From assembly GCF_013408745.1 (NCBI RefSeq), contig NZ_JACCBJ010000001.1, positions 3,596,001-3,660,000 of the forward strand: a stretch of DNA of 64,000 nucleotides, written 5' to 3'. Origin of the DNA: Leifsonia soli. GTDB lineage: Bacteria > Actinomycetota > Actinomycetes > Actinomycetales > Microbacteriaceae. Made by a program: the position numbers and the translations under genes. The notes under the pieces were generated by a model that was given only the letters and a program-made list of their open reading frames with translations, was not told the DNA's origin and did not search any database. Below are positions 2,277-61,066 of this stretch, one piece after another (the first letter of the stretch is position 1; each line of letters opens with the position of its first letter).

Positions 2277-2278
2277 GT

Positions 2279-2315
2279 GGAGGGGCGGAGCCGCCGACCG
2301 CGGCTCCGCCCCTCC
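2279..2315 (+). terminator. Perfect 15-bp stem-loop between binding-protein and permease genes
   Basis: GGAGGGGCGGAGCCG at 2279-2293 is matched exactly by its reverse complement at 2301-2315, with a 7-nt loop. It starts 2 nt after the binding-protein stop and has no following U-run. Its position suggests a partial terminator or 3'-end mRNA stabiliser that gives more binding protein than permease. Confidence 0.75.
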
Positions 2316-2336
2316 CTCCGATCCGGAGAGCATGAC

Positions 2337-4189: not shown

Positions 4190-4228
4190 CCATCCGACCC
4201 GATCCATCGAACCGACCTGAGGAGAACC

Positions 4229-5404: not shown

Positions 5405-6427
5405 TCAGTGCCGGGCGGCGACCGACGCCCGTTCGATCACCGGCATCGGGATGAGCTCCTCGCCCGCGGGGCCGGGGTGCAGCAGCAGCTCGACCGATCG
5501 GGCGCCCATCGCCTCGTGCGGGAGCGCGACGGTCGTGAGCCCGGGCCGCAGGTACGCTGCGAGCTCGTCGTTGTCGAACGAGACGATGGAGAGGTCGTCC
5601 GGGATGCGCAGGCCCGCCTCGCTCGCCGCCTGGTAGGCGCCGAAGGCGAGCCGGTCGTTCATGGCGACGATGGCCTGCGGGCGGTCCTTCCGGCGGAGCA
5701 GCTTCCTGGTCGCCTCGTATCCCTCGTCGGGCTCCCACAGCCACACCGACGTCTCCGACACGAAGTCGAGATCGAGCTCCGCCATCGTGTCGCGGATGCC
5801 GGCGACGCGCTGCGCGACGGTCGCCGACCGGAACAGCCCTTTCTCCTTCGCGTCGCTCTGACCCAACAGGGCGATCCCCTCGCGGAAGCCGGCGTCCGCC
5901 AGCACGTGCACGGCCGACCGGCCGCCGCCGTACTCGTCCGGCAGCACGGCGTGCGGGAAGCGCGCGTTGGTGGCGTTCAGCATGACCACCGGGGTCTCGA
6001 TCCGCATGTCGGGAAGGAACAGCTCCCGCGCGCGCATGGTGGCGAACACGATCCCGTCGACCTGCCGGTCGAGCGCCGCGCCGATCGCCTCGGTCTCGCG
6101 TTTCGGCTCGCCGTCCGTCTCGAGCACCATCATCACGTGACCGGCCGTCTCCGCCGCGTTCAGTGCGCCCTTGATGAGGCCGGAGGCGAAGCGGGTGGTC
6201 GCGACCACGTCCGAGATGAACGCGATGGTGTGCGTCTTGTCGGTCTTGAGCCCGCGGGCGGCCACGTTGGGCCGGTAGCCGAGTTCGGCGGCGGCCGCGT
6301 GGACGCGGTCGTGGGCGTCCTGCGAGAGGCGGGTGTCCGGGCGGCCGTTGAGGATCATGGACGCGGCGGAGACGGAGAGGCCCGCCTTCCTGGCGACGTC
6401 GGCCAGGGTCACGCGCTTGCTCAGCAT
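5405..6427 (-). CDS. LacI-family transcriptional regulator (importer 2)
   Basis: This 340-residue repressor has an N-terminal helix-turn-helix reading VTLADVARKAGLSVSAASMIL (about residues 5-25) with the hinge region after it. The sensor domain ends in the IPDDLSIVSFDNDEL and PGLTTVALPHEAMGAR blocks. ATG 6427 is chosen because an AGGAGGAGG Shine-Dalgarno lies just upstream and the helix-turn-helix begins directly after it; a longer in-frame start at 6535 would overlap the promoter region. It diverges from the importer 2 operon and shares the 157-bp intergenic region containing a palindromic operator candidate, so it probably represses that operon and perhaps itself. Confidence 0.92.
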   Translation of the reverse strand: MLSKRVTLADVARKAGLSVSAASMILNGRPDTRLSQDAHDRVHAAAAELGYRPNVAARGLKTDKTHTIAFISDVVATTRFASGLIKGALNAAETAGHVMMVLETDGEPKRETEAIGAALDRQVDGIVFATMRARELFLPDMRIETPVVMLNATNARFPHAVLPDEYGGGRSAVHVLADAGFREGIALLGQSDAKEKGLFRSATVAQRVAGIRDTMAELDLDFVSETSVWLWEPDEGYEATRKLLRRKDRPQAIVAMNDRLAFGAYQAASEAGLRIPDDLSIVSFDNDELAAYLRPGLTTVALPHEAMGARSVELLLHPGPAGEELIPMPVIERASVAARH

Positions 6428-6488
6428 CGAGACGTCCTCCTCCTGCTTCGGGATGGTAGCCGCTGGGCGTGCCGATCGCGGAACGCAG

Positions 6489-6541
6489 TTGACAATGTGC
6501 GCGACGTATCTCAGTATAGGGCCTGCTGAAAGCATTTAGCA
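6489..6541 (+). promoter_or_regulatory. Promoter and LacI-type operator of importer 2 operon
   Basis: TTGACA (6489-6494) is followed after 17 nt by CAGTAT (6512-6517), a plausible sigma-70-type promoter. Just downstream TGCTGAAAGCATTTAGCA (6524-6541) is an 18-bp imperfect palindrome in which seven of nine base pairs are symmetric. Its placement right after the -10 fits repression by the divergently encoded LacI protein. Confidence 0.6.
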
Positions 6542-6584
6542 CTGGGATCGGTATCGACCCATCCTGTCGACGAAGGAGTCCTGC

Positions 6585-7937
6585 ATGTCCACAACCTCTC
6601 GCGGGCGGAGGGTGCGCGGCGCAGCAGCCGCCGGCCTCATCGCCTCGCTCACCGCACTCGTCTTCACCGGATGCGCCCCCGGATCGTCCACTTCCGGGGC
6701 GACCACCGCGACCGACGTCAGCACCAAGCTCACCACGGACAAGGTCCAGCTGACGATCGCCGACGAGACCGGGTTCCCGCTGACGGACGACCTCACCAAG
6801 GAGTTCACGAAGCAGCACCCGAACATCACGTTCAAGATCACCCGCGACACGTTCCAGAACCTCACGGCCAACGCGCCCAAGCTGCTCGCCAGCTCGACGC
6901 CGCCCGACCTCATCCGCCTCCCCACCCTCGGCGACACGGTCAAGGACGGCCTGGTCGCCAACCTCGACCCCTTCTTCACGGCCTACGGCTGGGACAAGTG
7001 GTCGCCGGCCCAGCTCGCTCCGCTGCGCATGACCAAGGACGGCGTGCGCGGCAGCGGCTCCCTGTACCAGCTGGGCCTCGGCTACAGCGTCACGGGCATC
7101 TTCATGAACACCAAGCTCGCCGAGCAGGCCGGGATCACCGCGCCGCCGGAGACGCTGGGTGAGCTCGAGGCCGACTTCGCGAAGGCCAAGGCGGCCGGGA
7201 TCGCGCCGCTGATCGAGGGCGACAAGGACGGCGTGGTGAACTTCACCGTCCAGGCGGCGATGAACCAGTACGCCGACAAGGCGAAGTTCCTCGACTGGAT
7301 GTTCAACAAGCCGGGTGCGACGTACAACACCCCGGGCAACGTGAAGGGCGCCGAGCTCATCCGGAAGTGGGCGGACGCCGGCTACTTCCCGTCGGACATC
7401 AACGCGCTCGACTACTTCACGTTCGTCAGCCGCTTCCAGGACGGCGGTGGCGTCTTCACCTTCAACGGCAACTGGGAGGCCGCCAACTACGCCAAGAAGC
7501 TCGGCAAGGACGTCACCTTCTTCCTGGTCCCCCCGGCGGAGAAGGGCGGAGACCACGTCGCGATGGGTGCGGCGAACTCCTTCTCGGCCGCGGCCAAGTC
7601 GAAGCACCTCAACGAGGTCGCCTACTTCCTGAACTGGGTGCACACGAACGACAAGGCGCGTCAGATCGTCGTCGACGTGACCGGAGCTGCGCCGGGCGGC
7701 GACCCGGCCCAGGCCCAGCCGAAGGTCGAGAAGGGCTCCATCACGGAGCAGGTGCTCGCGGCGGCGGCGCAGATCGCCAAGGAGGACGGCCAGGTCGACT
7801 TCATGGCGAACACGACGGCGGGCATCTACGCCGGCGCGATCATCCCGGAGTCGCAGCTGCTGGTGACCAGCAAGATCAGCGGCCAGGAGTTCGTCGACAA
7901 GGTGCAGGCGTTCTACGAGCAGGAAGTGAAGAAGTAG
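6585..7937 (+). CDS. Sugar ABC transporter substrate-binding lipoprotein (importer 2)
   Basis: This 450-residue extracellular sugar-binding protein has a twin-Arg-rich basic start, a hydrophobic core and a lipobox VFTGC with the lipid-attached cysteine at residue 30. The mature part begins with a Ser/Thr-rich linker before the first beta strand. AAGGAG (6573-6578) lies 6 nt upstream of ATG 6585. It is the first gene of an operon with two permeases, a beta-propeller glycosidase and a beta-lactamase-fold hydrolase. The downstream glycosidase suggests an oligosaccharide ligand, perhaps a fructoside, but no ligand-specific residues can be recognised by eye. Confidence 0.92.
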   Translation: MSTTSRGRRVRGAAAAGLIASLTALVFTGCAPGSSTSGATTATDVSTKLTTDKVQLTIADETGFPLTDDLTKEFTKQHPNITFKITRDTFQNLTANAPKLLASSTPPDLIRLPTLGDTVKDGLVANLDPFFTAYGWDKWSPAQLAPLRMTKDGVRGSGSLYQLGLGYSVTGIFMNTKLAEQAGITAPPETLGELEADFAKAKAAGIAPLIEGDKDGVVNFTVQAAMNQYADKAKFLDWMFNKPGATYNTPGNVKGAELIRKWADAGYFPSDINALDYFTFVSRFQDGGGVFTFNGNWEAANYAKKLGKDVTFFLVPPAEKGGDHVAMGAANSFSAAAKSKHLNEVAYFLNWVHTNDKARQIVVDVTGAAPGGDPAQAQPKVEKGSITEQVLAAAAQIAKEDGQVDFMANTTAGIYAGAIIPESQLLVTSKISGQEFVDKVQAFYEQEVKK

Positions 7938-7939
7938 CG

Positions 7940-8941
7940 ATGACCTCGGTGCGACCCCGCGCGGGCGACGACACGACCCGCCACTCCCCGTCGGCGCGAC
8001 GGGCGGTTCGCGACGGCTCGCGCGGGGCCGCACCCGGGACCCCCGTGCGCCCGGCCGCCCGGAGACGGCCGGCCGGGCGCACGGGGAGGATCGGCTGGCT
8101 GCTCGTCGCGCCCGCTCTGTTCTTCTACGCGGCCTTCGTGCTGTGGCCGCTCATCCAGGGTGTCCAGTACTCGTTCTACGACTGGAACGGGATCGGCGCA
8201 TCCACCTGGGTCGGACTCTCGAACTACCTGACGGTCTTCACCGACCCGGACCTCCTCGGGGCGATCAAGAACGCGTTCATCCTCATCGCGTTCTTCACCG
8301 TCATCCCGGTGGTCGCGGGGCTGGTGCTCGCCACGCTCATCCGGTCCGTCCGCGCCGGGTTCTTCTCCAGCCTCTCGCAGACGGTGCTGTTCCTGCCGCA
8401 GATCATCCCGCTCGCCGCCGCCGGAATCGCCTGGTCGTGGATGTACGCCCAGACCGGCGCCGTCAACCAGATCCTGGGATGGATCGGGCTGGGCGGCCTC
8501 GCCCGGCCGTGGCTCGGCGACTACCAGACCGCGCTGCCGGCCGTCGGGCTGATCGGCTCGTGGACGCTGACCGGCCTGTGCACCGTCCTGCTCCTCACCG
8601 GCATCGGCAAGATCGACGCCTCCCTCTACGAGGCGGCGCGGCTCGACGGCGCCGGATGGTGGCGCGAGTTCTTCACCATCACGCTCCCCGGCCTCCGGCA
8701 GGAGCTCGCGGTGCTCATCACCATCACGATCATCGCCGCGCTCAGCAGCTTCGACATCATCTACACGACCACCCTCGGCGGCCCGGGCAGAGCGACCCTG
8801 GTGCCGGGCATCTCGATCTACCGGATCGGGTTCACGCAGAGCGAGGTGGGGCTGGCCTCCGCCTTCGGCATCGTGCTCATGATCCTCGTCCTCGTGGTCG
8901 TCCTCCCGATCCAGCGCCTCTCGAAAGTCCGTGACCAATGA
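7940..8941 (+). CDS. Sugar ABC transporter permease, MalF type (importer 2)
   Basis: This 333-residue CUT1 permease starts 2 nt after the binding-protein stop. A 55-residue, Arg/Pro-rich cytoplasmic tail precedes the first membrane helix (GWLLVAPALFFYAAFVLW). Six membrane segments and the ATPase-docking loop EAARLDGAGWWREFFTITLP are visible. The stop overlaps the next ATG (ATGA). No strong Shine-Dalgarno is seen, so translation is probably coupled to the preceding gene. Confidence 0.9.
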   Translation: MTSVRPRAGDDTTRHSPSARRAVRDGSRGAAPGTPVRPAARRRPAGRTGRIGWLLVAPALFFYAAFVLWPLIQGVQYSFYDWNGIGASTWVGLSNYLTVFTDPDLLGAIKNAFILIAFFTVIPVVAGLVLATLIRSVRAGFFSSLSQTVLFLPQIIPLAAAGIAWSWMYAQTGAVNQILGWIGLGGLARPWLGDYQTALPAVGLIGSWTLTGLCTVLLLTGIGKIDASLYEAARLDGAGWWREFFTITLPGLRQELAVLITITIIAALSSFDIIYTTTLGGPGRATLVPGISIYRIGFTQSEVGLASAFGIVLMILVLVVVLPIQRLSKVRDQ

Positions 8942-9762
8942 TCGTCAATCCCGTCGAGAAGTGGACGGGCCGTGTGCTGCTCGTCCTCGTGCTCGTCCTC
9001 ACCGTCATCCCGCTGCTCAACATGGTCTCGGCGGCGCTGCAGCCGGCCGACGTCAACCCGACCGGTCTGGCGTGGCCGACGAACCCGCAGTGGGGCAACT
9101 TCGTGGAGGCCTTCAACACCGGCCACGTCTGGGAGCTCCTCGGCTCGAGCGCCCTCATCGTGCTCGGGGTCGTCCCGATCAGCCTCGTCATCGCGAGCCT
9201 CGCCGGCTACGCCCTCGGCAGCCTCCGGATGAAGGGGTCGCGTGCGCTTCTCATCCTCTTCGTGCTGGGGCTCACCATCCCGTTCGAGGCGCTGATCATC
9301 CCGCTGTACTACGAGATGCAGTCGCTCAACGTTCTGAACACGCAGTGGGCGATCATCCTGCCGCTCATCGGTCTGTTCATGCCGTTCAGCGTGTTCTGGA
9401 TGCGCGCCCACTTCGTCGGAGTGCCGACGGAGCTCTCCGAGGCGGCCAGGGTCGACGGGGCTGGGATGTGGCAGGAGCTCCGGCTCATCCACCTCCCGCT
9501 CGCGCGCCCCGCGCTGTCGGCCCTCGGCATCCTGCTGTTCCTGTGGACCTGGAACCAGTTCCTGCTGCCCGTCGTGCTCATCGCCGACCCGCTGCAGCGC
9601 ACGGTGGCCGGGGCGCTGACGTTCTTCCAGGGGCAGTACAGCCTCAGCATCCCGCTGCTGAACGCGGGTGCGCTGATCATCATCCTCCCGACGATCCTGG
9701 TCTTCGTCATCTTCCAGCGCCAGTTCATCCGGGCGCTGATCCAGGGCGCGGTCAAGGGCTGA
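8938..9762 (+). CDS. Sugar ABC transporter permease, MalG type (importer 2)
   Basis: This 274-residue CUT1 permease has a short cytoplasmic N-terminus with the first helix beginning near residue 11. The docking loop reads EAARVDGAGMWQELRLIHLP, and the protein ends with a short basic tail after the last helix. It overlaps the upstream permease by 4 bp (ATGA), and the glycosidase gene starts 3 nt after its stop. It should pair with the preceding protein in the membrane and use an ATPase encoded elsewhere. Confidence 0.92.
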   Translation: MIVNPVEKWTGRVLLVLVLVLTVIPLLNMVSAALQPADVNPTGLAWPTNPQWGNFVEAFNTGHVWELLGSSALIVLGVVPISLVIASLAGYALGSLRMKGSRALLILFVLGLTIPFEALIIPLYYEMQSLNVLNTQWAIILPLIGLFMPFSVFWMRAHFVGVPTELSEAARVDGAGMWQELRLIHLPLARPALSALGILLFLWTWNQFLLPVVLIADPLQRTVAGALTFFQGQYSLSIPLLNAGALIIILPTILVFVIFQRQFIRALIQGAVKG

Positions 9763-9765
9763 CGG

Positions 9766-10758
9766 ATGGGGTTCAGCAGAGACGGTCACTGGGTCTGGGA
9801 TTTCTGGGTCGCCGACGACGGCGACCTCTTCCACCTCTTCTACCTGCACGCGCCGGTGTCGCTCGTCGACCCGGACCTGCGGCATCGCAACGCCCGGATC
9901 GGGCACGCGACCTCCTCGGACCTGATCGCCTGGGTCGACCACGGCACGGTGCTGGGCCCCGGCGGTCCGGGCGACCTGGACGCATCGGCGACCTGGACGG
10001 GCAGCGTCGTCCGCGACGGCGACGGCGCCTGGAGGATGTTCTACACCGGGTCCGCGTTCCTCTCGGCGGGCGAGATCACCAACATCGAGACGATCGGCGT
10101 CGCGGTGTCCGACGATCTCTTCCACTGGCGCAAGGACGACCGCCTGCGGCTGCAGGCCGACCCGCGCTGGTACGAGGTGCTGCCCGACCGCACCTGGCAC
10201 GAGGAGGCGTGGCGCGACCCGTGGGTGTTCCGCGACCCCGAGGGCGACGGCTGGCACATGCTGATCACGGCCCGCGTACGCGACGGCGCCTCGGCCCGTG
10301 ACCGCGGCGTGGTGGGGCACGCGGTCTCGAACGACCTCGTGGACTGGCGCGTCCAACCGCCCCTCACGGAGCCGGGCGCCGGGTTCGCGCACCTGGAGGT
10401 GCCGCAGAGCGTCCGCCTGGGCGGACGGGACTGGCTGCTGTTCTCGTGCGACACGGCCCATCTCGCCGGCGACCGGATGGCCGGCCCCGGCGGGATCTGG
10501 ATCGCACCCGCCGCGTCGCCGCTCGGCCCGTTCGACCTCGGAGCGGCGGAGCTGCTCCTGGACGAGCGCTACTATGCGGGACGTGTCGTGGTCGGCCGCG
10601 ACGAGTCGCCGCACCTCCTGGCGTTCGAGAACACCGGGGAGGCCGGCGGGTTCGGCGGCCGGATCACCGACCCGATCGCGCTGACGCTGGAGGCGGACGG
10701 CGCAGGAGGGATGCGGCCCCGGGCCGCCATCGACGACAGAGAGACGGAGACCACATGA
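9766..10758 (+). CDS. Five-bladed beta-propeller glycoside hydrolase (GH32/43/68-like)
   Basis: This 330-residue cytoplasmic protein without a signal peptide has the hallmarks of the GH32/GH68/GH43 superfamily. WVWDFW near the N-terminus carries the nucleophile candidate Asp12, WRDPWVF carries the RDP-type transition-state stabiliser (Arg150-Asp151-Pro152), and AHLEV carries the acid/base candidate Glu211. A WTGSVV strand lies between them. The combination resembles fructan-acting enzymes more than arabinanases, but exact family assignment needs a profile search. A close paralogue lies at 57826 beside a sugar kinase and a GH91 enzyme, which supports a beta-fructosidase-type activity on sugars delivered by importer 2. 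The gene lies between importer and hydrolase genes with 3-nt and overlapping junctions. Confidence 0.8.
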   Translation: MGFSRDGHWVWDFWVADDGDLFHLFYLHAPVSLVDPDLRHRNARIGHATSSDLIAWVDHGTVLGPGGPGDLDASATWTGSVVRDGDGAWRMFYTGSAFLSAGEITNIETIGVAVSDDLFHWRKDDRLRLQADPRWYEVLPDRTWHEEAWRDPWVFRDPEGDGWHMLITARVRDGASARDRGVVGHAVSNDLVDWRVQPPLTEPGAGFAHLEVPQSVRLGGRDWLLFSCDTAHLAGDRMAGPGGIWIAPAASPLGPFDLGAAELLLDERYYAGRVVVGRDESPHLLAFENTGEAGGFGGRITDPIALTLEADGAGGMRPRAAIDDRETETT

Positions 10759-11912
10759 CCGACGTGATCGAGGGCACCGCCCAGGCCGGCTTCGACGGGG
10801 TCGCTTCGGCGTTCGCCGACGCGTTCGCCGGGAGGCCGACGATGGGAGCCGCGCTGTCCGTCCGCGTGGACGGCCGGCCGGTCGTGCAGCTCTGGGGCGG
10901 CGTGAAGGACGAGCGCGACGGGCGGCCGTGGACCGCGGACACGGCCTCCGTGGTGTTCTCGTGCACCAAGGGCGTCATGTCAATCCTCGTCGCCCGCCTC
11001 GTGCAGGACGGCCTGCTCGACTACGAGGCGCCGGTCAGCCGCTACTGGCCCGAGTTCGCCGCGGCCGGGAAGGGCGGTGTGACGGTCGCCGAGCTGCTGT
11101 CGCACCGCGCCGGACTCTCCGCGCTGCGCGAGCGGCTCACGCTCGACCAGGCGCTCGACTGGGAGACGGTCACCGGCCTCCTCGCCGCTCAGGAGCCGCT
11201 GTGGGCGCCGGGCACCGGGTACGCCTACCACGCGCTCACCCACGGCTGGCTGGCGGGCGAGCTCGTCCGCCGCGTCACCTCCACGATGCCCGGCGCCTAC
11301 CTGGCATCGATCGCCGCACCCTGGTCGGACGACCTGTGGATCGGGCTGCCCGCCGACCGTACTGACCGCGTCGCGCACCTGCAGGCGTCGGAGAGCCAGG
11401 TCGAGGCGGGGGAGCAGCTGGAGCAGGCCGAGTCGCCCTGGACGGCGCTCGCCATGACGCTCGGCGACGCCTTCCCACCGGAGCTCGTGACCCCGGAAGG
11501 CGGCTTCAACGACCCGCGGGTCCGGGCGGCGCAGATCCCCGGCGCCGGCGGCATCGCGACCGCGGATGCGCTCGCGGCCCTCTGGTCGTCGACGGTGGCG
11601 GAGACCGACGGTGTGCGGGTGCTGGACGACGACGTGCTCGATGCCGGCCTCATCCCGATGAGCGGGGGAGAGCCGGTATTCCCGACGCCCGGGCCCTGGC
11701 CGCGCTGGGCGCGGGGCTTCCAGCTGGACTCGGAGGCGCGTCGGTACCTCGGTCCGTCGAGCCTCGGCCACGACGGGGCCGGAGGGCAGGTCGCCTTCGC
11801 CGATCGCGACGACCGCGTGGGCTTCGCGTTCGTCACCAACTGGATGGAGGCGGGAGCCGACGAGCGGGCGACCACCATCGTCGCCGCGCTGAAGCGCGCG
11901 CTCGGCCGCTAG
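10755..11912 (+). CDS. Serine beta-lactamase-fold hydrolase (class C / EstB type)
   Basis: This 385-residue protein of the beta-lactamase-related (serine hydrolase) family has the nucleophile motif SCTK with Ser69 and Lys72, and a tyrosine motif at about residues 156-158 (YAY) as expected for EstB-like esterases. There is no signal peptide, which argues against antibiotic resistance and for a cytoplasmic esterase or amidase. The start overlaps the glycosidase stop (ATGA), so it is the last gene of the importer 2 operon. A role in removing ester groups such as acetyl from imported oligosaccharides would fit the context but is inference. The next gene is convergent. Confidence 0.85.
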   Translation: MTDVIEGTAQAGFDGVASAFADAFAGRPTMGAALSVRVDGRPVVQLWGGVKDERDGRPWTADTASVVFSCTKGVMSILVARLVQDGLLDYEAPVSRYWPEFAAAGKGGVTVAELLSHRAGLSALRERLTLDQALDWETVTGLLAAQEPLWAPGTGYAYHALTHGWLAGELVRRVTSTMPGAYLASIAAPWSDDLWIGLPADRTDRVAHLQASESQVEAGEQLEQAESPWTALAMTLGDAFPPELVTPEGGFNDPRVRAAQIPGAGGIATADALAALWSSTVAETDGVRVLDDDVLDAGLIPMSGGEPVFPTPGPWPRWARGFQLDSEARRYLGPSSLGHDGAGGQVAFADRDDRVGFAFVTNWMEAGADERATTIVAALKRALGR

Positions 11913-51977: not shown

Positions 51978-52086
51978 ACCTCCTCTGCACGTCGGGGCGG
52001 GACCAAAGGCCTCCCTCCTGCGCGGAGTCGTCGCGAGCAGCCGATCGGCGGATGAATTCTCCGGAGTCCGTGAGGAGAATGACGGT

Positions 52087-53415
52087 ATGAGTGCCGAGCG
52101 GATGGATGTCGTCGTCGTTGGTGCGGGTGTCGCCGGGCTCGCCGCGGCCGAGATGCTCCGGTCGGCCGGCCGGAGTGTCACCGTTCTCGAAGCGCGGGAA
52201 CGCATCGGCGGGCGCGTGTGGACGGACCGGCGGTACGGAACGGCCCTCGACCTCGGCGCGTCGTGGATCCACGGCATCACGGACAACCCCGTGTGGGATG
52301 CGGTGCAGCGGCACGGCATCGCGACGCGCGAGTTCACCGTCGGGAGCTATCAGCCCGGCGGACGACCGATCGCCTACTTCTCGCCGGAGGGCGCGCGGCT
52401 GACCGCGGGGGAGGTCGACGACTTCGTCTCCGACGTGTCGACGGCGTCGGGCCGGCTGGAGCGTGTGATCGCGGAGCTGGGCACGGGCATCCCGTACGCG
52501 ACGGCGGTCGACCGGGCCCTGGCGGCGCTGTCGTGGACGCACGAACGCGAGCAGCGGGTGCGCGAGTTCCTGAGGCATCGAGCCGAAGAGCAGTATGGTG
52601 TCTCGGCGGACGACCTGGACGTGCACGGGCTGGATGATGACTCCATCGAAGGCGACGAGGTCGTGTTTCCCAACGGCTACGACCAGCTCCCTCGAGCGCT
52701 CGCCGAAGCGCTCGACATCCGGCTCGGCTGCCCTGTGTCACGCGTCTCCTGGTCGGATCGGGGTGCAGAGGTGACGACGGGCAACTCGGTGGTGTCGGCG
52801 GATCATGTCATCGTCACCGTGCCCATCGGTGTGTTGAAGTCGCGCGGGATCGTCTTCGACCCGCCGCTTCCGGAGCCGATCGCGGGCGCGATCGGCCGGC
52901 TGGAGATGAACCGTTTCGAGAAAGTGGTGCTCCGCTTCCCGCGACGATTCTGGCCTGGTGGCGTGTACGCCGTCCGGCGGCAGGGCCCGGCAGCGCACTG
53001 GTGGCACTCCTGGTACGACATCAGCGGTCGCGACGAGACGCCGACCCTGCTGACATTCGCCGCGGCGGAATGCGCGGCACAGACTGCTCTGTGGTCCGAG
53101 GATCAGGTCACGGCGTCGGTGATGGCCTCACTTCGCGAGGTCTTCGGGGTCGCGGCGCCGGATCCGTCGGGAACCGTGGTGACGCGCTGGCAGCTGGATC
53201 CGTATTCGCGCGGCTCGTACGCCTACCTGCCGGTCGGTGCGCGGCGGAGGGATCACGAGGACCTCGCGACGCCGGTCGGGGGCGGGGTGCTGCACATCGC
53301 AGGAGAGGCGACCTGGATGGACGATCCCGCGACCGTCACCGCGGCCTTCGAGTCGGGGCGCCGTGCCGCATCGCGAATCCTGAGTGGTGGGGCGACGAGC
53401 AGTCGATCCGCCTGA
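52087..53415 (+). CDS. FAD-dependent flavin monoamine oxidase
   Basis: This 442-residue amine oxidase has the N-terminal dinucleotide motif VVVGAGVAGLAAAE (Gly12-x-Gly14-x-x-Gly17), the GGRVWTD flavin-binding segment, and LDLGASWIHG, characteristic of monoamine and polyamine oxidases. The C-terminal GGGVLHIAGEATW block is the second FAD-contact region. AGGAGA lies before ATG 52087. It is divergent from an APC permease and probably oxidises the imported amine to an aldehyde, ammonia and peroxide. No aldehyde dehydrogenase gene is adjacent. Confidence 0.92.
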   Translation: MSAERMDVVVVGAGVAGLAAAEMLRSAGRSVTVLEARERIGGRVWTDRRYGTALDLGASWIHGITDNPVWDAVQRHGIATREFTVGSYQPGGRPIAYFSPEGARLTAGEVDDFVSDVSTASGRLERVIAELGTGIPYATAVDRALAALSWTHEREQRVREFLRHRAEEQYGVSADDLDVHGLDDDSIEGDEVVFPNGYDQLPRALAEALDIRLGCPVSRVSWSDRGAEVTTGNSVVSADHVIVTVPIGVLKSRGIVFDPPLPEPIAGAIGRLEMNRFEKVVLRFPRRFWPGGVYAVRRQGPAAHWWHSWYDISGRDETPTLLTFAAAECAAQTALWSEDQVTASVMASLREVFGVAAPDPSGTVVTRWQLDPYSRGSYAYLPVGARRRDHEDLATPVGGGVLHIAGEATWMDDPATVTAAFESGRRAASRILSGGATSSRSA

Positions 53416-53479: not shown

Positions 53480-53514
53480 TTTGGCAAGTTTTGGCATTTT
53501 GGCACCGTTTGGCA
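53480..53514 (+). repeat. Four direct repeats of TTTGGCA upstream of importer 5 promoter
   Basis: TTTGGCA occurs at 53480-53486, 53490-53496, 53498-53504 and 53508-53514, spaced 8 to 10 bp, just before the -35. Each contains TTGGCA, the same half-site as the palindromic operator downstream. They are unusual as direct rather than inverted copies. Confidence 0.7.
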
Positions 53515-53515
53515 G

Positions 53516-53544
53516 TTGACCTCGGAAGCCGCGCGTCCTTATCG
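53516..53544 (+). promoter_or_regulatory. Probable promoter of the importer 5 / GH91 operon
   Basis: TTGACC (53516-53521) and TTATCG (53539-53544) are separated by 17 nt. The element lies between the TTTGGCA repeats and the large palindrome, 88 bp before the binding-protein start. Confidence 0.5.
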
Positions 53545-53546
53545 TC

Positions 53547-53579
53547 GTGCCAAGACGTTTTGCCAAAACGTCTTGGCAC
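53547..53579. promoter_or_regulatory. 33-bp perfect palindrome, probable LacI-family operator of importer 5 operon
   Basis: GTGCCAAGACGTTTTG (53547-53562) and its exact reverse complement (53564-53579) flank one base. It contains two overlapping 18-bp LacI-type sites. The better one is TGCCAAAACGTCTTGGCA (53561-53578), symmetric except for one pair, with the central CG usual for LacI-family operators. It begins 2 bp after the -10, so binding would block transcription. The LacI gene at 56764 is the likely partner. Confidence 0.75.
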
Positions 53580-53631: not shown

Positions 53632-54909
53632 ATGCTTCGTAAGAAGTTCGCGGCAGCCGCAGCACTCGGCACCGCGGTTGCGCTCACCCTTGCCGGGTGC
53701 GGCGTCGGCGGCGGGGACAGTTCCTCGTCCGACGCGTCCATCACCGTCCTCGTCGAGGCCGGCGGCCACGCCGAGCTTCAGCCGATCGCCGACCTCTACA
53801 AGAAGGACACCGGCACCACGGTGACCTTCGTGGAGCTTCCCTACGACGGGCTCTACAACCGTCTCAACAGCGAGTTCACCTCGGGGTCCGTCTCGTTCGA
53901 CGTCGCCGCGCTCGACTCCATCTGGCTTCCCGCCTTCAAGGATGCCGTCACGCCCCTCGACAAGCTGTTCACCCCCGAGGTGAAGAGCGACCTCTTCCCC
54001 GCCCTGGTGAAGGAGGCGAACGTCGACGGCACCTACGCGGGCATGCCCGTGTGGACCAACTCGGAGATCCTCTACTACCGGAAGGACCTGTTCGACGACG
54101 CGGCGAACAAGGCCGCATTCAAGACCACGTACGGGTACGACCTGGTGCCGCCGACCACCTGGCAGCAGTACCAGGATGCCGCCGAGTTCTTCACCCAGCC
54201 CGATAAGGGCCTGTACGGAACGGACGTGAAGGGCGCCGTCGAGACGGAGTACCTGGCGACGCTGTCGCAGACCGGCGAGAAGACGATGGTGCTGAACAAC
54301 TCGGGCAGCGAGATCTCCCTCGGTGATGAGAACAGCCTGAAGGCCCTCGACTTCTACACCGGCCTGCAGAAGTACGCGCCCGCCGGCTCCGCCCAGCTCG
54401 ACTGGGCCGGTGCGCAGAACCTGTTCAACCAGGGCAAGACGGCCATGATGCGCTTCTGGGCCCACGCCTACCGGCAGATTCCGAAGGACGCCTCGGTATA
54501 CGGCAAGGTCGGCGTCGCGCCGATGATCGCCGGACCCGGCGGTATCGCGGGCGTCCCCGGCGCCTGGTACCTGTCGGTCGCCAAGGCGAGCAAGAAGCAG
54601 CAGCAGGGACTGGACTTCGTGAAGTTCGCCTACGAGCACAACGAGCTGAGCGCGAAGACCTCGCTCGGCCTCGTCGCGCGGAAGTCGGCCTTCGAGAAGT
54701 ACCAGGACCAGCCCGGCTACGAGAACTACAAGCCGCTGGTGGAGACCCTGGACGCCAAGGCCACCATCCCGCGGCCGGCGACGCCCAAGTGGCAGCAGAT
54801 CGTGGACACCGTGCTCGTCCCGATGATCCAGAAGTCGTTGCAGCCCGGCGCGGACAAGCAGGCGCTGCTGAACGCAGCAAAGGAGCAGGTCCAATCGCTA
54901 GTCAAGTGA
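53632..54909 (+). CDS. Sugar ABC transporter substrate-binding lipoprotein (importer 5)
   Basis: This 425-residue family 1 binding lipoprotein has a short basic start, Ala/Leu-rich core and lipobox LTLAGC with Cys23, then a Ser-rich tether. CGGAGT lies 4 nt before ATG 53632. It leads an operon of two permeases, lacI, a beta-propeller glycosidase, a PfkB kinase and a GH91 enzyme, which together suggest a difructose anhydride or other short fructoside as ligand. The long 5' region carries the operator array. Confidence 0.93.
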   Translation: MLRKKFAAAAALGTAVALTLAGCGVGGGDSSSSDASITVLVEAGGHAELQPIADLYKKDTGTTVTFVELPYDGLYNRLNSEFTSGSVSFDVAALDSIWLPAFKDAVTPLDKLFTPEVKSDLFPALVKEANVDGTYAGMPVWTNSEILYYRKDLFDDAANKAAFKTTYGYDLVPPTTWQQYQDAAEFFTQPDKGLYGTDVKGAVETEYLATLSQTGEKTMVLNNSGSEISLGDENSLKALDFYTGLQKYAPAGSAQLDWAGAQNLFNQGKTAMMRFWAHAYRQIPKDASVYGKVGVAPMIAGPGGIAGVPGAWYLSVAKASKKQQQGLDFVKFAYEHNELSAKTSLGLVARKSAFEKYQDQPGYENYKPLVETLDAKATIPRPATPKWQQIVDTVLVPMIQKSLQPGADKQALLNAAKEQVQSLVK

Positions 54910-55862
54910 TGGAGCAGCGAGTGGGCGGCCGCACCGGCCGCCCGCTCCGCTCTCCTCGTCAACGATCCATGCGCACCGCCGACCGGCGCTTCGCCGCCCT
55001 GTTGATGTTGCCCGCCGGCCTGTTCCTCGCCATCTTCATCGGGTGGCCGCTGCTCCAGTTCGTCGGCGACAGCTTCTTCAGGATCAGTCCGATCGCCGGA
55101 GGGCCCCGCGAGTTCGTCGGGTTCGCCAACTACGTCGCGGCGCTGACCAGCTCGGACTTCACCAATGCTGTGTGGCGGACCATCCTCTACACGGTGATCG
55201 TGGTGACGTTCGAGTTCGTCCTCGGTCTCCTCGTAGCGCTGCTGTTCACGTCGCTCGGCAACTCCTCACGCGTGTTCCGCACGATCTTCCTGTACCCCCT
55301 GATGATCGCCCCCATCGTGGCCGGTCTGCTCTGGCGGTTCCTCCTCATCGACAACTTCGGGATCGTCAACGAGATTCTGAAGTCCGTCGGGATCATCCAG
55401 TCGAGCGACCAGATCCAATGGCTGAGCGATCCGAACATCGCGCTGTTCTCCGTCGCCATCCCCGACATCTGGCTCACCACGTCGTTCATCACCCTTGTGC
55501 TCTTCGCCGGCCTGCAGAACATCCCCGGCGACGTGATCGAGGCCGCACGGCTCGACGGCGCCCGGTACCCGACCATCCTGTTCCGCATCATCGTCCCGCT
55601 GCTGCGACCGGTCATCGCCGTCGCGCTGATCGTCCGCGGTATCGACGCGGCCCGCGCCTTCGACGTCATCGTCATCCAGACCAACGGCGGACCGCAGCAG
55701 AGCACGGAGACCCTCTCGCTGCTGATCTACCGGACGATGGTCCGCTTCGGCGATCCCGGACTCGCCAGCGCGATGGGGACGATCTACCTGATCGCGATGC
55801 TCGCCGTCGCCCTCTTCGCGATCCTCACCATCTGGCGGCCGGGAAGCGAGACCGAACGATGA
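54909..55862 (+). CDS. Sugar ABC transporter permease, MalF type (importer 5)
   Basis: This 317-residue CUT1 permease has six membrane segments; the docking loop reads EAARLDGARYPTILFRIIVP. The ATG at 54909 shares one base with the binding-protein stop (TGATG); ATG 54969 is an alternative that would remove a 20-residue basic tail. The stop overlaps the next ATG (ATGA). Confidence 0.92.
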   Translation: MEQRVGGRTGRPLRSPRQRSMRTADRRFAALLMLPAGLFLAIFIGWPLLQFVGDSFFRISPIAGGPREFVGFANYVAALTSSDFTNAVWRTILYTVIVVTFEFVLGLLVALLFTSLGNSSRVFRTIFLYPLMIAPIVAGLLWRFLLIDNFGIVNEILKSVGIIQSSDQIQWLSDPNIALFSVAIPDIWLTTSFITLVLFAGLQNIPGDVIEAARLDGARYPTILFRIIVPLLRPVIAVALIVRGIDAARAFDVIVIQTNGGPQQSTETLSLLIYRTMVRFGDPGLASAMGTIYLIAMLAVALFAILTIWRPGSETER

Positions 55863-56698
55863 ACGGACTGGAGGCGCGCCGCCTCAGCTCCCGCGTTCTG
55901 CTCTGGCTGATCCTGATCGCGGTCGTCGTGCTGTACGGGTTCCCCTTCCTGTACATGCTGTTCACCTCGTTCAAGACCCCGCTCGAGACCATCTCCGTCC
56001 CGCCGAAACTGCTGCCGAGCGTGTGGACCGTGGAGAACTACGTCTCAGCGCTCACGAGGGATGGCGTTCTCGCGTCGTTCATCAACAGCATCATCACGGC
56101 CGTCCTGAGCACCCTCATCTCGCTGGTCCTCGCGATCCCGGCCGCCTACGCGGTGACCCGGTTCCGGACCAGGACGGGCCGGATCTTCATCGTGCTCGCA
56201 CTGGTCGCCCGGATGGTGCCGCCGATCGTGATCGGCGTGCCGATGATCTCGATCTTCCGCACCCTCGGGATCTCGGACACCTCGCTCGCGTTGGCGATCG
56301 CCCACACCACGATCTCGCTCCCGCTGTCGATCTGGCTCATGTCCAGTTTCTTCGAGGCGGTGCCCGCCGAACTCGAGGAGGCCGCGAAGATCGACGGGAA
56401 CAGCCGGCTCGGCGCGCTCTGGCGGGTCGTCATCCCCGTCACCGCCGGCGGCGTCGCGGTCACGGCGATCTTCGCGTTCCTCGCCAGCTGGAACGAGTTC
56501 TTGTTCGCCCTGCTGCTGACGGCGGTACGGTCGCAGACGACGCCGATCGTCATCGCGAACTTCCAGACGCAGTTCGGACTCGACTGGGGATCCATGACGG
56601 CGCTCGCCGTCCTCTACTCCATCCCCGTCATCCTGCTCACTCTGCTGCTGCAGCGGCACATCGTCGCCGGGCTCACCCTCGGTGCGGTGAAGGGCTGA
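55859..56698 (+). CDS. Sugar ABC transporter permease, MalG type (importer 5)
   Basis: This 279-residue CUT1 permease has a docking loop EAAKIDGNSRLGALWRVVIP and the C-terminal GLTLGAVKG typical of MalG. It overlaps the MalF gene by 4 bp. The lacI gene follows after 65 bp. Confidence 0.92.
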   Translation: MNGLEARRLSSRVLLWLILIAVVVLYGFPFLYMLFTSFKTPLETISVPPKLLPSVWTVENYVSALTRDGVLASFINSIITAVLSTLISLVLAIPAAYAVTRFRTRTGRIFIVLALVARMVPPIVIGVPMISIFRTLGISDTSLALAIAHTTISLPLSIWLMSSFFEAVPAELEEAAKIDGNSRLGALWRVVIPVTAGGVAVTAIFAFLASWNEFLFALLLTAVRSQTTPIVIANFQTQFGLDWGSMTALAVLYSIPVILLTLLLQRHIVAGLTLGAVKG

Positions 56699-56763
56699 GG
56701 CGGGGCCGTGGTACGGACGAGCGCCGATCGGTCGGTGATGACCTCGAGGGGGAAGGAAGAACC

Positions 56764-57810
56764 GTGTCAGTGAAGAGCGCGAGCATTCGCGACGTGGCGG
56801 AATTGGCGGGGGTGTCCGTCACCACGGTGTCGCATGTGCTGAACGAGACGCCGCACACACGAGTCGCCGAGGAGACCCGTGAGCGGGTCCGGCACGCGGC
56901 GAAGACTCTCGGCTATGGACCCAACCGGGCGGCGCAAGCACTGCGGACGAACCGGTCGGGCCTCATCGGGCTGCTGAGCGAGGAGATCGCCACCACACCG
57001 CACGCCGGACGGATCATCCTCGGTGCTCAGGAGGCAGCGCGGGAGCACGACCTCACGCTGGTCATCATCAACACCGAGCGAGAGTCGAGCGGCAACTCCC
57101 ACAGAGACGACGTGCAGGCACTGCTCGACCGGCAGGTGGACGCTGTGCTGTACGCGACGATGTACCACCGGGAGGTGTCGCTCCCGCCGAACCTCCAAGC
57201 GCTTCCCGCCGTCCTCATCGACGCGACGGATCGTGCCGGCATCGTCCCCGCCGTCGTCCCGGACGAGGTGGGCGGCGCTGTCGCGGCCGTCAGCCACCTC
57301 GTCGACGCCGGACACACCCGCATCGGCTTCCTCAACAACGACGACGATGTGCCAGCAACCCACCTGCGATTCGCCGGGTACCGGCAGGTGCTGGATGACC
57401 ACGGCATCCGCTTCGATGCGACGCTGACCGCCTCTGCGCCATCGGAAACCCTCCCCGGCTACGAACTCGCACGCGAGATGCTCAGCCGCAGCGACCGGCC
57501 GACAGCACTGTTCTGCTACAACGACCGGATGGCGATGGGCGCCTACCGTGCCGCCGCCGAGCTGGGGCTGGCGATTCCCCGCGATCTCTCGATCGTCGGC
57601 TTCGACAACCAGGAGCTCATCGCCGCGAATCTGTTCCCCGGCCTCACCACGGTCGCCCTCCCGCACTACGAGATGGGCGTGTGGGCCGTTGAGACCCTCG
57701 TCCATCTCCTTCACGGCGAGGCCGAACACCGCCTGCTCGCCGACAAGCCGACACTGCTCGACTGCCCGCTGGTCATCCGCGGGTCCGTCGCTCCGCCACG
57801 CGCCGACTGA
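56764..57810 (+). CDS. LacI-family transcriptional regulator (importer 5 / GH91 operon)
   Basis: This 348-residue repressor has a helix-turn-helix reading SIRDVAELAGVSVTTVSHVL (residues 7-26), a hinge with PNRAAQALRTNRSGL, and the sensor domain with IPRDLSIVGFDNQEL and PGLTTVALPHYEMG. It begins at GTG 56764 with GGGGAAGGAAG upstream. It lies in the middle of the operon it probably controls, so it would be autoregulated through the palindrome at 53547-53579, whose TGCCAA half-sites and central CG suit a LacI protein. The effector is likely a fructoside or a phosphorylated product; this is inference. Confidence 0.92.
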   Translation: MSVKSASIRDVAELAGVSVTTVSHVLNETPHTRVAEETRERVRHAAKTLGYGPNRAAQALRTNRSGLIGLLSEEIATTPHAGRIILGAQEAAREHDLTLVIINTERESSGNSHRDDVQALLDRQVDAVLYATMYHREVSLPPNLQALPAVLIDATDRAGIVPAVVPDEVGGAVAAVSHLVDAGHTRIGFLNNDDDVPATHLRFAGYRQVLDDHGIRFDATLTASAPSETLPGYELAREMLSRSDRPTALFCYNDRMAMGAYRAAAELGLAIPRDLSIVGFDNQELIAANLFPGLTTVALPHYEMGVWAVETLVHLLHGEAEHRLLADKPTLLDCPLVIRGSVAPPRAD

Positions 57811-57825
57811 AAGGTATCCGCACAC

Positions 57826-58806
57826 ATGCTTCGTCTCGCCGCCTCCTGGGTGTGGGATTTCTGGATCGCCGACGACGGCGACCGCTACCACCTCTTCTTC
57901 CTGAAGGCTTCCCGCGCGCTCCAGGACCCCGACCGCCGGCACTGGCGCGCCACCATCGGGCACGCCACCTCCCCGGACCTCGTCTCGTGGACGGAACAGC
58001 AGGACGCCGTCATTCCCGACGACGCGCCCGCGTTCGACGACCTCGCGACGTGGACCGGTTCGGTCGTCCGCCAGGACGACGGAACCTGGCGGATGTTCTA
58101 CACCGCGGTCAGCCGCAGCGAAGGCGGACTCACCCAGCGCATCAGCTCCGTCGTGTCGGACGACCTGTTCACCTGGCGCCGCGAAAAAGGACGTCAGGTT
58201 CTCGAGCCCGACCCCCGCTGGTACGAGACCGCGGAAACACGCGAGTGGCCGGACCAGGCGTGGAGAGACCCGTGGGTGTTCCGGCACGACGACACCTGGC
58301 ACATGCTCATCACGGCACGCGCCAATCACGGAGACCCCGACGACCGCGGTGTCATCGGTCACGCTGTATCTCCCGACCTGACGACCTGGACGGTGCAGCC
58401 CCCGCTCTCGCAGCCCGGCGCCGGCTTCGGCCACCTCGAGGTCGTCCAGACGATCGACGTCGAGGGCCGGCCCGTCGGCCTCTTCTCGTGCCTCGGCTCC
58501 GAACTCTCCCGCGAACGGCGAGCCCACGATCCCGTCGGGGGAGTCTGGGCGTTCCCCGCCGATTCGCTCACCGGGCCGTTCGACACCGCGCAGTCCTACC
58601 GGCTCACCGACGAAGCGCTCTATGTCGGCCGTCTCGTTCAAGACCGCGCTGGGGCCTGGCAGTTCCTGGCTTTCCACAACGACGACGACAACGGCGGCTG
58701 GATCGGCGAGATCTCCGACCCGCTCCCCGTCCGGTGGGTCGAAGGGCGACTGACCCTCCAGGGGAGCTCGGCGATCCCCGCAGAGCAGCTGCGAGTCGGC
58801 TCGTGA
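57826..58806 (+). CDS. Five-bladed beta-propeller glycoside hydrolase (GH32/43/68-like), paralogue
   Basis: This 326-residue enzyme is a clear paralogue of the one at 9766, sharing WVWDFW with nucleophile candidate Asp11, WTGSVV, WRDPWVF with Arg147-Asp148-Pro149, and GHLEVVQ with acid/base candidate Glu205. There is no signal peptide. It begins 15 bp after lacI, and its stop overlaps the PfkB start (GTGA). Encoded with a fructokinase-like kinase and a GH91 enzyme, it most likely cleaves inulobiose or a similar beta-fructoside to fructose in the cytoplasm. Family placement between GH32, GH43 and GH68 needs a profile search. Confidence 0.82.
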   Translation: MLRLAASWVWDFWIADDGDRYHLFFLKASRALQDPDRRHWRATIGHATSPDLVSWTEQQDAVIPDDAPAFDDLATWTGSVVRQDDGTWRMFYTAVSRSEGGLTQRISSVVSDDLFTWRREKGRQVLEPDPRWYETAETREWPDQAWRDPWVFRHDDTWHMLITARANHGDPDDRGVIGHAVSPDLTTWTVQPPLSQPGAGFGHLEVVQTIDVEGRPVGLFSCLGSELSRERRAHDPVGGVWAFPADSLTGPFDTAQSYRLTDEALYVGRLVQDRAGAWQFLAFHNDDDNGGWIGEISDPLPVRWVEGRLTLQGSSAIPAEQLRVGS

Positions 58807-59741
58807 ACGCCGGAGCCCTCGTCGTCGGCGAAGCCCTCATCGACGAAGTCGTCGCAGCCTCCACGGTCAACCGGTACTCCGGCGGGTCGCCGGCCAACGT
58901 CGCCCTCGGGCTCGCGAGACTGGACGTGGTCACACGTCTGCACACGGCGATCGGAGATGACGATGACGGAGCACTCATCCGCCGGCATCTGGCCGACTCA
59001 GGCGTGGGAGTCACACCCGAGTCGATCACCGCGCATCCGACCTCCCGAGCTGTCGCCACCATCGGAGCCGACGGGTCGGCCACCTACCGTTTCGCTCTCG
59101 GCTGGGATCCGCGGAGCCTCGATGACCTGCGAAGCCCGGCCATCATCCACACCGGTTCTCTCGGAGCATTCCTCGAGCCCGGATCGGATGTCACGCGGGA
59201 CATCGTGCGGCGCGGACGCGCGGCGGGCGCGCTCATCAGCTTCGATCCGAACATCCGGCCGTCGCTGATCGCCGACCCGGAACGCTCCCGGGAAGACGTC
59301 ATGGCGCTGGCGCGCGCGAGTCATCTGACCAAGCTCAGCGACGAGGACGCGGACTTCCTGTTCCCGGGTACGTCCATCGAGTCTGTCGTCGACCTGCTCA
59401 TCGACAGCGGGGTGGCCGTCGTCGGCGTCACGCAGGGGAGCAGAGGGGCGCTGCTGGGAAGCGGAGCGCATCGCGTGCACATCCCGCCCGTCGCCGTCGC
59501 GGTGGCCGACACCGTGGGTGCCGGTGACTCGTTCATGGCGGCTCTGATCTGGGCCCTCGCCGTCGAGGACGGCGGATGGGACGGTCAGCCCATCACGGAG
59601 AGCCGGCTCTTCGCGGTGGGCACACGCGCCGCGCGGGCGGCGGCCATCACCGTCTCGCGGACCGGTGCCGACCTGCCCTCCCTGAGCGACGTGCGCTCGC
59701 CGTCGCCGGCAGATCATGGGAAGGACACCTGCCACGCATGA
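58803..59741 (+). CDS. PfkB-family carbohydrate kinase, probable fructokinase
   Basis: This 312-residue ribokinase-family kinase has the sugar-binding N-terminal motif GGSPANVALGLARL and the C-terminal signature DTVGAGDSFMAAL with catalytic base Asp242. Fructokinases of this family phosphorylate fructose to fructose 6-phosphate. The GTG start overlaps the glycosidase stop and the gene end overlaps the GH91 start, so the three are strictly co-expressed. Fructose as substrate follows from the GH91 neighbour; 2-keto-sugars of other kinds remain possible. Confidence 0.9.
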   Translation: MNAGALVVGEALIDEVVAASTVNRYSGGSPANVALGLARLDVVTRLHTAIGDDDDGALIRRHLADSGVGVTPESITAHPTSRAVATIGADGSATYRFALGWDPRSLDDLRSPAIIHTGSLGAFLEPGSDVTRDIVRRGRAAGALISFDPNIRPSLIADPERSREDVMALARASHLTKLSDEDADFLFPGTSIESVVDLLIDSGVAVVGVTQGSRGALLGSGAHRVHIPPVAVAVADTVGAGDSFMAALIWALAVEDGGWDGQPITESRLFAVGTRAARAAAITVSRTGADLPSLSDVRSPSPADHGKDTCHA

Positions 59742-61066
59742 CCCGTTACGACGTGACCACCTGGCCTGTCGGCGACGCCGCAGAAGACATCGGCGAGGTG
59801 ATCAACAGCATCATCGCGGACGTGAAGCAGCATCAGGACGTCTCCGATCATCGGGACGGCGGCAAGCCGGGAGCGGTGATCTCCATTCCGCCGGGGGACT
59901 ACCGTCTTCGCACCCAGGTGCTGATCGACGTCAGCTTCCTCCGGATCGAAGGGTCGGGTCACGGCTTCACGTCGTCGAGCATCCGGTTCAATGTCCCGGA
60001 GGACCAGTGGCCGGATCTCCACGAGCTCTGGCCGGGAGGAAGCCGCATCCTGGTCGACATCGCGGCGGACGCCGGCGGAGACCCGTCCACTGGCGCCGCC
60101 TTCTTGGTGAAGCGGACCGGAAGCCCCCGGATCAGCTCCGTCGAGTTCTCGAATTTCTGCATCGACGGCCTCCACTTCGTCGCCGACGGCTCCGGTCTTC
60201 ATCCCGAGAACACCTATGTCAATGGAAAGACGGGCATCTACGTCGCGAGCGCGAACGATTCCTTCCGCTTCACCGGCATGGGATTCGTGTACCTCGAACA
60301 TGCGCTCACCGTCTACAACGCCGACGCGCTCTCGATCCATGACAACTTCATCGCCGAGAGCGGCAGCTGCATCGAGCTGCGCGGCTGGGGCCAGGCGTCC
60401 AAGGTGACCGACAACCTGATCGGCGCCGGGCCCGCGGGTCACTCGATCTACGCCGAGAACCATGGCGGCCTCCTGATCACGGCCAACAACGTGTTCCCGC
60501 GCGGCGCGAGCAGCGTCCACCTGAGAAGCGTCACGCGCTCCAGCGTCACGAACAACCGTCTGCACTCGTTCTATCCGGGCATGCTGATCCTCGAAGACAA
60601 CGCTTCCGAGAACCTCATCGCGTCCAATCACCTGCTGCGCGATCGCGAACCGTGGGCGCCGTTCCTCGACGTGGACAACGGACGGGACGACCTCTTCGGG
60701 CTCCTGGTCATCGACGGCAGCAACAACTCGGTGATCGGAAACCACTTCTCGGAGGTGGTGGACTCGGCGAAGCTCCGTCCACGCGGGGCCACCCCCGTCA
60801 TCGTGCGCCTCTCGTCGGGGACCGGCAACTACCTCGCCAGCAACCACATGGTCGCGCTGGACGCGCGCGCGACGTCCGGGGACTCGGCGTTCGACGCCCA
60901 GGTCGACGCGCTGCTCACAACGGCCGCGACGCAGCCCCTCGATGTCGTCACGGTCCTGGTGGAGGAGGGCTCGACGGCGAACACCGTCCTCGATTCCGGC
61001 ACGACCGCTCAGACCATCCTGGACGCTGCCGCCAACGCCTTCCGGCCGACGCCGACGATCGGTTGA
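59738..61066 (+). CDS. GH91 family enzyme, probable intracellular difructose-anhydride hydrolase
   Basis: This 442-residue right-handed beta-helix protein matches the inulin fructotransferase family (GH91). Conserved blocks I recognise are YDVTTW at the start, IPPGDYRLRTQVLIDVSFL, GSGHGF, GMGFVYLEHA, NFIAESGSCIEL and DDLFGL. The catalytic Asp/Glu pair, 11 residues apart in the family, is present as Asp196 (NAD) and Glu207 (IAE). Known fructotransferases are secreted and carry signal peptides; this protein starts directly with the domain. It therefore more likely resembles the cytoplasmic GH91 hydrolases that convert difructose anhydride III to inulobiose. The ATG overlaps the kinase stop (ATGA), and a hairpin follows the stop. 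Confidence 0.88.
   Translation: MTRYDVTTWPVGDAAEDIGEVINSIIADVKQHQDVSDHRDGGKPGAVISIPPGDYRLRTQVLIDVSFLRIEGSGHGFTSSSIRFNVPEDQWPDLHELWPGGSRILVDIAADAGGDPSTGAAFLVKRTGSPRISSVEFSNFCIDGLHFVADGSGLHPENTYVNGKTGIYVASANDSFRFTGMGFVYLEHALTVYNADALSIHDNFIAESGSCIELRGWGQASKVTDNLIGAGPAGHSIYAENHGGLLITANNVFPRGASSVHLRSVTRSSVTNNRLHSFYPGMLILEDNASENLIASNHLLRDREPWAPFLDVDNGRDDLFGLLVIDGSNNSVIGNHFSEVVDSAKLRPRGATPVIVRLSSGTGNYLASNHMVALDARATSGDSAFDAQVDALLTTAATQPLDVVTVLVEEGSTANTVLDSGTTAQTILDAAANAFRPTPTIG

Follow-up and report, generated by a model that had tools for sequence, protein, structure and literature searches.

Organization of the seven-gene operon

A 64,000-nt window of the Leifsonia soli genome (a single contig of 3.92 Mb), meaning the whole stretch of DNA that was analysed and within which all positions are counted, carries seven co-oriented open reading frames (ORFs) on the + strand at 53632–61066, which are predicted to serve the use of a difructose anhydride (DFA), most probably DFA-III (di-fructofuranose 1,2':2,3'-dianhydride). 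As taken from the ORF list and from reading the sequence, they encode a sugar-binding lipoprotein (SBP) and two permeases of an ATP-binding cassette (ABC) importer, a LacI-family regulator, a compact glycosidase termed here GH32L, a PfkB-family kinase and a GH91 protein (Table 1). Pfam assigned SBP_bac_1, BPD_transp_1 (twice), LacI with Peripla_BP_3, Glyco_hydro_32N, PfkB and the inulin-fructotransferase beta-helix repeat across the operon. A preliminary description of this DNA had proposed an operon joining an importer and LacI gene to the GH91, PfkB and propeller-glycosidase genes, and all of these ORFs were found in place with Pfam support. The overlaps it had listed were likewise read in the sequence, as GTGA at the GH32L/PfkB and ATGA at the PfkB/GH91 junction; a further ATGA overlap joins the two permease genes, and an in-frame ATG that could start permease 1 overlaps the SBP stop codon. 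No ATPase gene lies within the operon, and a terminator scan gave no + strand site at its end.

Table 1. Features of the L. soli operon and its upstream region, in window positions
Feature	Position	Strand	Remarks
Promoter-like hexamers TTGACC-18-TATCGT	53516..53545	+	just upstream of operator; weak alone
Tandem LacI-type operator	53547..53579	.	two CCAARACGTYTTGS sites, perfect inverted repeat
ABC sugar-binding lipoprotein SBP	53632..54909	+	SBP_bac_1, Pfam 5e-31; lipobox
ABC permease 1	54969..55862	+	PF00528; alternative start 54909
ABC permease 2	55859..56698	+	PF00528; ATGA overlap with permease 1
LacI-family regulator	56764..57810	+	PF00356 and PF13377
GH32L, compact one-domain clan GH-J beta-propeller	57826..58806	+	Glyco_hydro_32N; putative triad D11, D148, E205
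PfkB-family kinase	58803..59741	+	GTG start; PF00294 3.6e-37
GH91 DFA-III hydrolase (predicted)	59738..61066	+	D196/E207; lid at about residues 374-400

Subfamily and location of the GH91 protein

Residues 2–442 of the GH91 protein gave a full-length match of 755–756 bits to the crystallised DFA-III hydrolase (DFA-IIIase; 5zks/5zl5), compared with 354–369 bits to DFA-III-forming fructotransferases, and its nearest named relatives are Leifsonia proteins of up to 98% identity. When it was aligned and placed in a tree with 80 close relatives and 35 neighbouring GH91s resembling inulin fructotransferase (IFTase), the L. soli protein and the 80 relatives formed one clade apart from the 35 IFTase-like proteins (support 0.82, midpoint root). 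The C-terminal lid, a feature credited to DFA-IIIase as a cover over the active centre (PMC11538131, in the portion of text available), measures 30 residues in L. soli and 29–30 in all 80 relatives, whereas the same region holds four residues or fewer in all 35 IFTase-like proteins, including two incomplete ones (L011 and L046); the lid-less beta-helix of a GH91 inulin fructotransferase is therefore not the form present here. The crystallised construct 5zky, which is without this segment, reads as a lid deletion. D196 and E207, which correspond to D207 and E218 of the Arthrobacter aurescens enzyme by the register of primers printed in PMC4640833, were invariant across the 115 other aligned GH91s, and mutants of that enzyme at either position are described in the accessible text of the same paper as completely inactive. 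Alanine stands at the position of the cysteine that is mutated in the C387A DFA-IIIase entry. With the crystallised enzyme the L. soli protein shares its full length, the catalytic acids and the lid, and the remaining differences are those of ordinary divergence. By these sequence tests it is a DFA-III hydrolase, and since it belongs to the lid-bearing subfamily, the substrate of the operon, given as a difructose anhydride in the preliminary description, was narrowed to DFA-III.

The same enzyme type bears on DFA-I, another cyclic fructose anhydride that the operon might serve. The window does contain, about 48 kb upstream, a gene of GH172 (DUF2961), the family of DFA-I hydrolase, and a GH32L paralogue is encoded in the operon next to it. 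That GH172 protein, however, scores highest with exo-alpha-D-arabinofuranosidase, and to our knowledge no lid-type GH91 hydrolyses DFA-I. The DFA-I hydrolase described in the available part of PMC8605356 is itself a GH172 enzyme. DFA-I was rejected as the main substrate on the type of the GH91 protein, and we regard it as the least credible of the readings considered.

As the preliminary description had noted, the GH91 protein is without a signal peptide: it starts MTRYDVTTWP and shows no leader. A hydropathy rule (not SignalP) found a twin-arginine-like leader in none of the 80 DFA-IIIase-type relatives and in 14 of the 35 IFTase-like proteins. For the comparison with solved structures one IFTase-like protein was taken from either kind: L015, with a leader, proved a near match of the DFA-III-forming IFTase 9j4i, and L022, without one, was closest to IFTase 2inu (454 bits), with DFA-IIIase almost as close. 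The missing signal peptide is nonetheless weak evidence for a cytoplasmic enzyme, because a DFA-I-forming GH91 enzyme of A. globiformis is reported, in the text available of PMC5448860, from the culture supernatant in spite of a gene without any signal-peptide structure; stronger evidence for a cytoplasmic DFA-IIIase role comes from the lid and from the operon context. That report also lends itself to a reading in which the L. soli protein is a fructotransferase exported without a classical signal and making DFA from inulin. This we consider very improbable, given that the protein has the lid which the 35 IFTase-like proteins are without, matches DFA-IIIase far better than IFTase and is encoded by a gene overlapping the kinase gene, and that the Arthrobacter DFA-IIIase is called intracellular (PMC11538131, partial text); a secreted fructotransferase was rejected on the lid, the subfamily and the gene overlap. 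In several relatives (L022, L024, L027, L038, L044, L061 and others) the gene divergent from the DFA-III operon encodes an IFTase-like GH91 without a signal peptide.

GH91 is single-copy in L. soli, no second match being obtained in the genome even at E-values up to 10, and DFA-III is therefore probably scavenged from other producers. PF12708, also searched against the genome, had no match there, a result that carries no information.

Companion proteins, operator and conservation

GH32L, of 326 aa, is predicted to fold as the N-terminal five-bladed propeller of GH32. The C-terminal beta-sandwich PF08244 was not matched among the families listed for 26 GH32L members; it was found in the GH32 of one relative (L015) and not in the shorter-type GH32s that L008, L059 and L060 carry. 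The GH68 profile PF02435 did not match the L. soli protein and weakly matched 6 of the 26 members (best 6.7e-05). D11 (in VWDFW), D148 (RDP) and E205 (HLEV), which by motif rather than by superposition are the putative Asp nucleophile, RDP Asp and Glu acid/base, were invariant in 26/26 members. The whole genome encodes two PF00251 proteins, both compact and one of them inside this operon, and no canonical GH32.

Among 398 Microbacteriaceae genomes, GH91 was found in 21, with a copy of at least 71% identity in 19, and in 3 of 10 genomes of the same genus, L. soli included, so that it is a patchy, accessory trait. GH32L at 74% identity or more was found in nine of these genomes, eight of which carry a DFA-IIIase-type GH91 beside it; expressed the other way, it occurs in 8 of the 19 genomes whose GH91 is at least 71% identical and in 1 of the remaining 379 (Fisher p 4.6e-11, a value that ignores kinship). 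In Glycomyces terrestris (L076, 9008–11329) GH32L and GH91 form a single 773-aa frame with no stop between them; the former GH91 start methionine is retained in the linker, and a separate GH91 could be made from it. To this in-frame fusion we attribute the merging of GH91 with GH32L in a single-linkage clustering of neighbouring ORFs. Searching with it retrieved three more fused clusters (P0241–P0243) at 86–87% identity, whose proteins measure 770, 775 and 781 aa and whose memberships number 2, 15 and 18, so the fusion is not a single sequencing slip. Nine other GH91 ORFs of more than 560 aa (for example L070 and L083) were read as out-of-frame upstream extensions rather than fusions. In another relative (G145) GH32L is followed directly by GH91, with no PfkB gene between.

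Related loci were taken as the best 80 of 263 actinobacterial relatives, 63 of them with full flanks. The four genes for SBP, permeases 1 and 2 and LacI lay together within 9 kb of GH91 in 63/63 full-flank loci and in 77 of the 80 overall, the other three being short contigs, so that the arrangement is no chance one; singly, LacI (at least 45% identity) was near in all 80, permease 2 in 78, and SBP and permease 1 in 77 each. Enzyme genes were scored by identity thresholds in categories that overlap, giving canonical GH32 in 54 loci, a second, shorter GH32 type in 15, GH32L in 13 and none of the three in four. A canonical GH32 is also nearby in two of the 13 GH32L loci (L040, L053). The GH91s of GH32L-type loci were not monophyletic in the GH91 tree, so the replacement of GH32 by GH32L was not one clean event on it. 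An IFTase-like GH91 was present in the fetched stretch of 34/80 loci, which ties the importer to the IFTase product, and one same-genus genome (G226; L113, 5781–15000) has such a gene within the operon, between PfkB and GH91. Between Leifsonia sp. C5G2 (L083) and L. soli, the SBP and permeases are 92–96% identical, GH91 76% and PfkB 65%, which suggests exchange or faster change in the enzyme half. As judged from its genome, L. soli thus has the half of the system that imports and not the half that cuts the polymer.

At its N-terminus the SBP has a lipobox-type leader (..LTLAGCG..; LAGC), and its best solved relatives are maltose/sugar-binding proteins (best 1.2e-22). A single OB_MalK match in the genome, at 1.86 Mb, fits a shared MsiK-like ATPase for the importer. 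The kinase is a probable fructokinase, as its closest solved relative is fructokinase 7fca (1.7e-50) and its best NCBIfam match is also fructokinase, at 114 bits, under the cut-off of 450 for that model. The sequence before the operon reads GTGCCAAGACGTTTTG-C-CAAAACGTCTTGGCAC, that is, two LacI-type sites 13 bp apart, and the perfect inverted repeat in which they sit has 16-nt arms. This palindromic predicted site with a central CG is conserved alongside the regulator: the motif CCAARACGTYTTGG, allowing up to 2 mismatches, was found in 74/77 SBP upstream regions of the relatives. Random segments drawn from these loci contained it in 1.6 of 77 cases on average (5 at most), the reversed motif scored 2/77, and none of 200 column-shuffled motifs exceeded 7. 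The strict consensus under-counts Arthrobacter-type sites, with T at position 6 (51/76 sites). Two sites 13 bp apart were counted by eye in 10/13 GH32L-type loci and in 3/64 others (L028, L034, L082). In the L. soli genome, exact matches occur only before this operon, and once up to 2 mismatches are allowed the pattern is no commoner than its reversed control (14 versus 17), so that no wider LacI regulon can be claimed. With a relaxed motif and without a chance control, a second site was seen near the divergent IFTase-like genes of 15/27 divergent loci, as a tandem pair in L082, which is only suggestive of IFTase co-regulation with the DFA-III operon. The LacI-family protein, whose gene is conserved, is a likely ligand-responsive repressor of the operon. 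A scan of the region gave one pair of promoter-like hexamers, where shuffles lead one to expect 0.7. At 53480–53515, just upstream of the operator, TTTGGCA or TTTTGGCA is repeated directly four times, in units that resemble operator half-sites.

Proposed DFA-III pathway and related systems

The operon very probably lets L. soli use DFA-III as a carbon source through import, opening, cleavage and phosphorylation. The lipoprotein and the two permeases would import DFA-III, powered by the shared MalK-type ATPase encoded elsewhere; cytoplasmic GH91 would open it reversibly to inulobiose; GH32L, a probable inulobiose-cleaving beta-fructofuranosidase, would hydrolyse this to two fructose; and the PfkB kinase would phosphorylate the fructose, helping to pull an opening step whose equilibrium favours the anhydride. 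LacI, acting at the two tandem operators, would keep the operon repressed as long as no pathway sugar is there. Gene order, overlaps, the GH91 subfamily, the predicted GH32L fold, operator conservation and the single GH91 are read from sequence; the importer ligand, the substrates of GH32L and the kinase, the LacI effector, the use of a shared ATPase and the direction of flux are inferred. The DFA-III would come from other organisms or heated plant material, an external source being invoked because no inulin fructotransferase was found in the genome. The opening is described as reversible, with DFA-III:inulobiose equilibria of 59:41 to 74:26 in the available text of PMC11538131, so that inulobiose must be removed, and the fused and overlapping GH32L/GH91 arrangements fit this chemistry. 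The order of transport, opening, cleavage and phosphorylation given in the preliminary description is in this way well supported by sequence; what needs correcting is the weight given to the missing signal peptide for the cytoplasmic location and, as set out below, the novelty claimed for the route.

A different reading, in which the importer takes short inulin-type oligosaccharides or inulobiose, GH91 acts on these intracellularly by trimming or cyclising and GH32L serves as a general exo-fructosidase, draws on an SBP whose ligand is not predictable from sequence, on a clan GH-J type GH32L that could act on any small fructan and for which VIA-align ranked inulosucrase and endo-levanase highest, and on the finding of no other GH32-type protein in the genome outside the 64-kb window. 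We consider it unlikely, as GH91 falls in the lid-bearing DFA-IIIase subfamily, an IFTase-like enzyme lies near the same importer in the relatives counted above, and GH32L is tied to GH91 by fusion and linkage. Several points nevertheless weigh against DFA-III use itself. GH32L at 74% is present, with no GH91 found, in one genome (G219, 82% complete), and its more distant paralogues are spread over many genomes that have no GH91, so that the family overall is not DFA-specific. The SBP is distant from the solved sugar-binding proteins, a PfkB gene is near GH91 in only 51/80 loci, and signal-less GH91 enzymes can be extracellular (PMC5448860, partial text).

The preliminary description had regarded an import-coupled route as little described, which did not hold, for such a route is already published for Arthrobacter and Blautia (PMC11538131, PMC8605356; available text of each, as for the comparisons that follow). 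The intracellular Arthrobacter route is dated there to Tanaka 1975 and Sakurai 1997, and a three-stage scheme is set out in PMC8605356, which discusses DFA-III as part of a monopolising pathway. Blautia clusters combine a GH91 DFA-IIIase, GH32 and ABC transporters, two of the strains having a sugar kinase as well (PMC11538131), and the L. soli operon is a DFA-III utilisation cluster of the kind described there, having a GH91 DFA-IIIase, an ABC importer and a GH32-type enzyme. Import, GH91 opening, a beta-fructofuranosidase and sometimes a kinase are thus common to both, whereas L. soli has a LacI gene and tandem operator, the word LacI being absent from the available text of PMC11538131 (figure aside), and a compact one-domain propeller enzyme in place of the GH32. 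The Arthrobacter pathway likewise proceeds from an intracellular DFA-IIIase to a beta-fructofuranosidase, and Arthrobacter loci have the syntenic importer and LacI; unlike L. soli, many have a nearby IFTase-like gene and a canonical GH32. The Bifidobacterium dentium DFA-I operon resembles that of L. soli in its LacI, ABC importer, intracellular anhydride hydrolase and GH32-type enzyme, and its genome is also described as having no putative GH91 IFTase gene, but its hydrolase is a retaining GH172 acting on DFA-I, not a GH91 (PMC8605356).

What is new relative to the known route is modest: the lack of a second GH91, which marks a probable scavenger, the compact GH32L replacing the usual Arthrobacter GH32, and the conserved LacI-type operator. 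The published route is hereby extended to Leifsonia and relatives with a specific regulator site, together with an uncharacterised compact fructosidase that is fused to the anhydride hydrolase in some relatives. The listings of a literature search that covered few subscription journals showed nothing on one-domain GH32, new clan GH-J subfamilies or GH91 with LacI or fusion. We give about even chances to the further proposal that GH32L represents a separate one-domain lineage of clan GH-J, placed between GH32 and GH68 and specialised for inulobiose, which when coupled or fused with DFA-IIIase acts as a two-step catalyst draining the unfavourable ring-opening equilibrium, here in a pure scavenger of DFA-III from IFTase-secreting neighbours. 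Fusion enzymes pulling the equilibrium to fructose, or compact inulobiose hydrolases, could serve fructan work, and a genome of this make-up is a candidate for cross-feeding studies on DFA-III.

Two other sugar gene sets lie in the window. The second set (924–5326, + strand) comprises an SBP, two permeases and the GH172 gene (4229–5326), whose product matched best, among solved structures, exo-alpha-D-arabinofuranosidase 8ic8 and then DFA-I hydrolase 7v1v; this set could serve alpha-D-fructofuranosides or alpha-D-arabinofuranosides. The third (5405–11912) comprises a LacI gene on the minus strand, two permeases, a PF00144 beta-lactamase-family protein, a likely SBP at 6585–7937 with no Pfam match at 0.001, and the GH32L paralogue (9766–10758), which is 51% identical to the GH32L of the DFA-III operon. 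Directly upstream of that operon, a flavin amine oxidase-type gene (PF01593) occupies 52048–53415 on the + strand.

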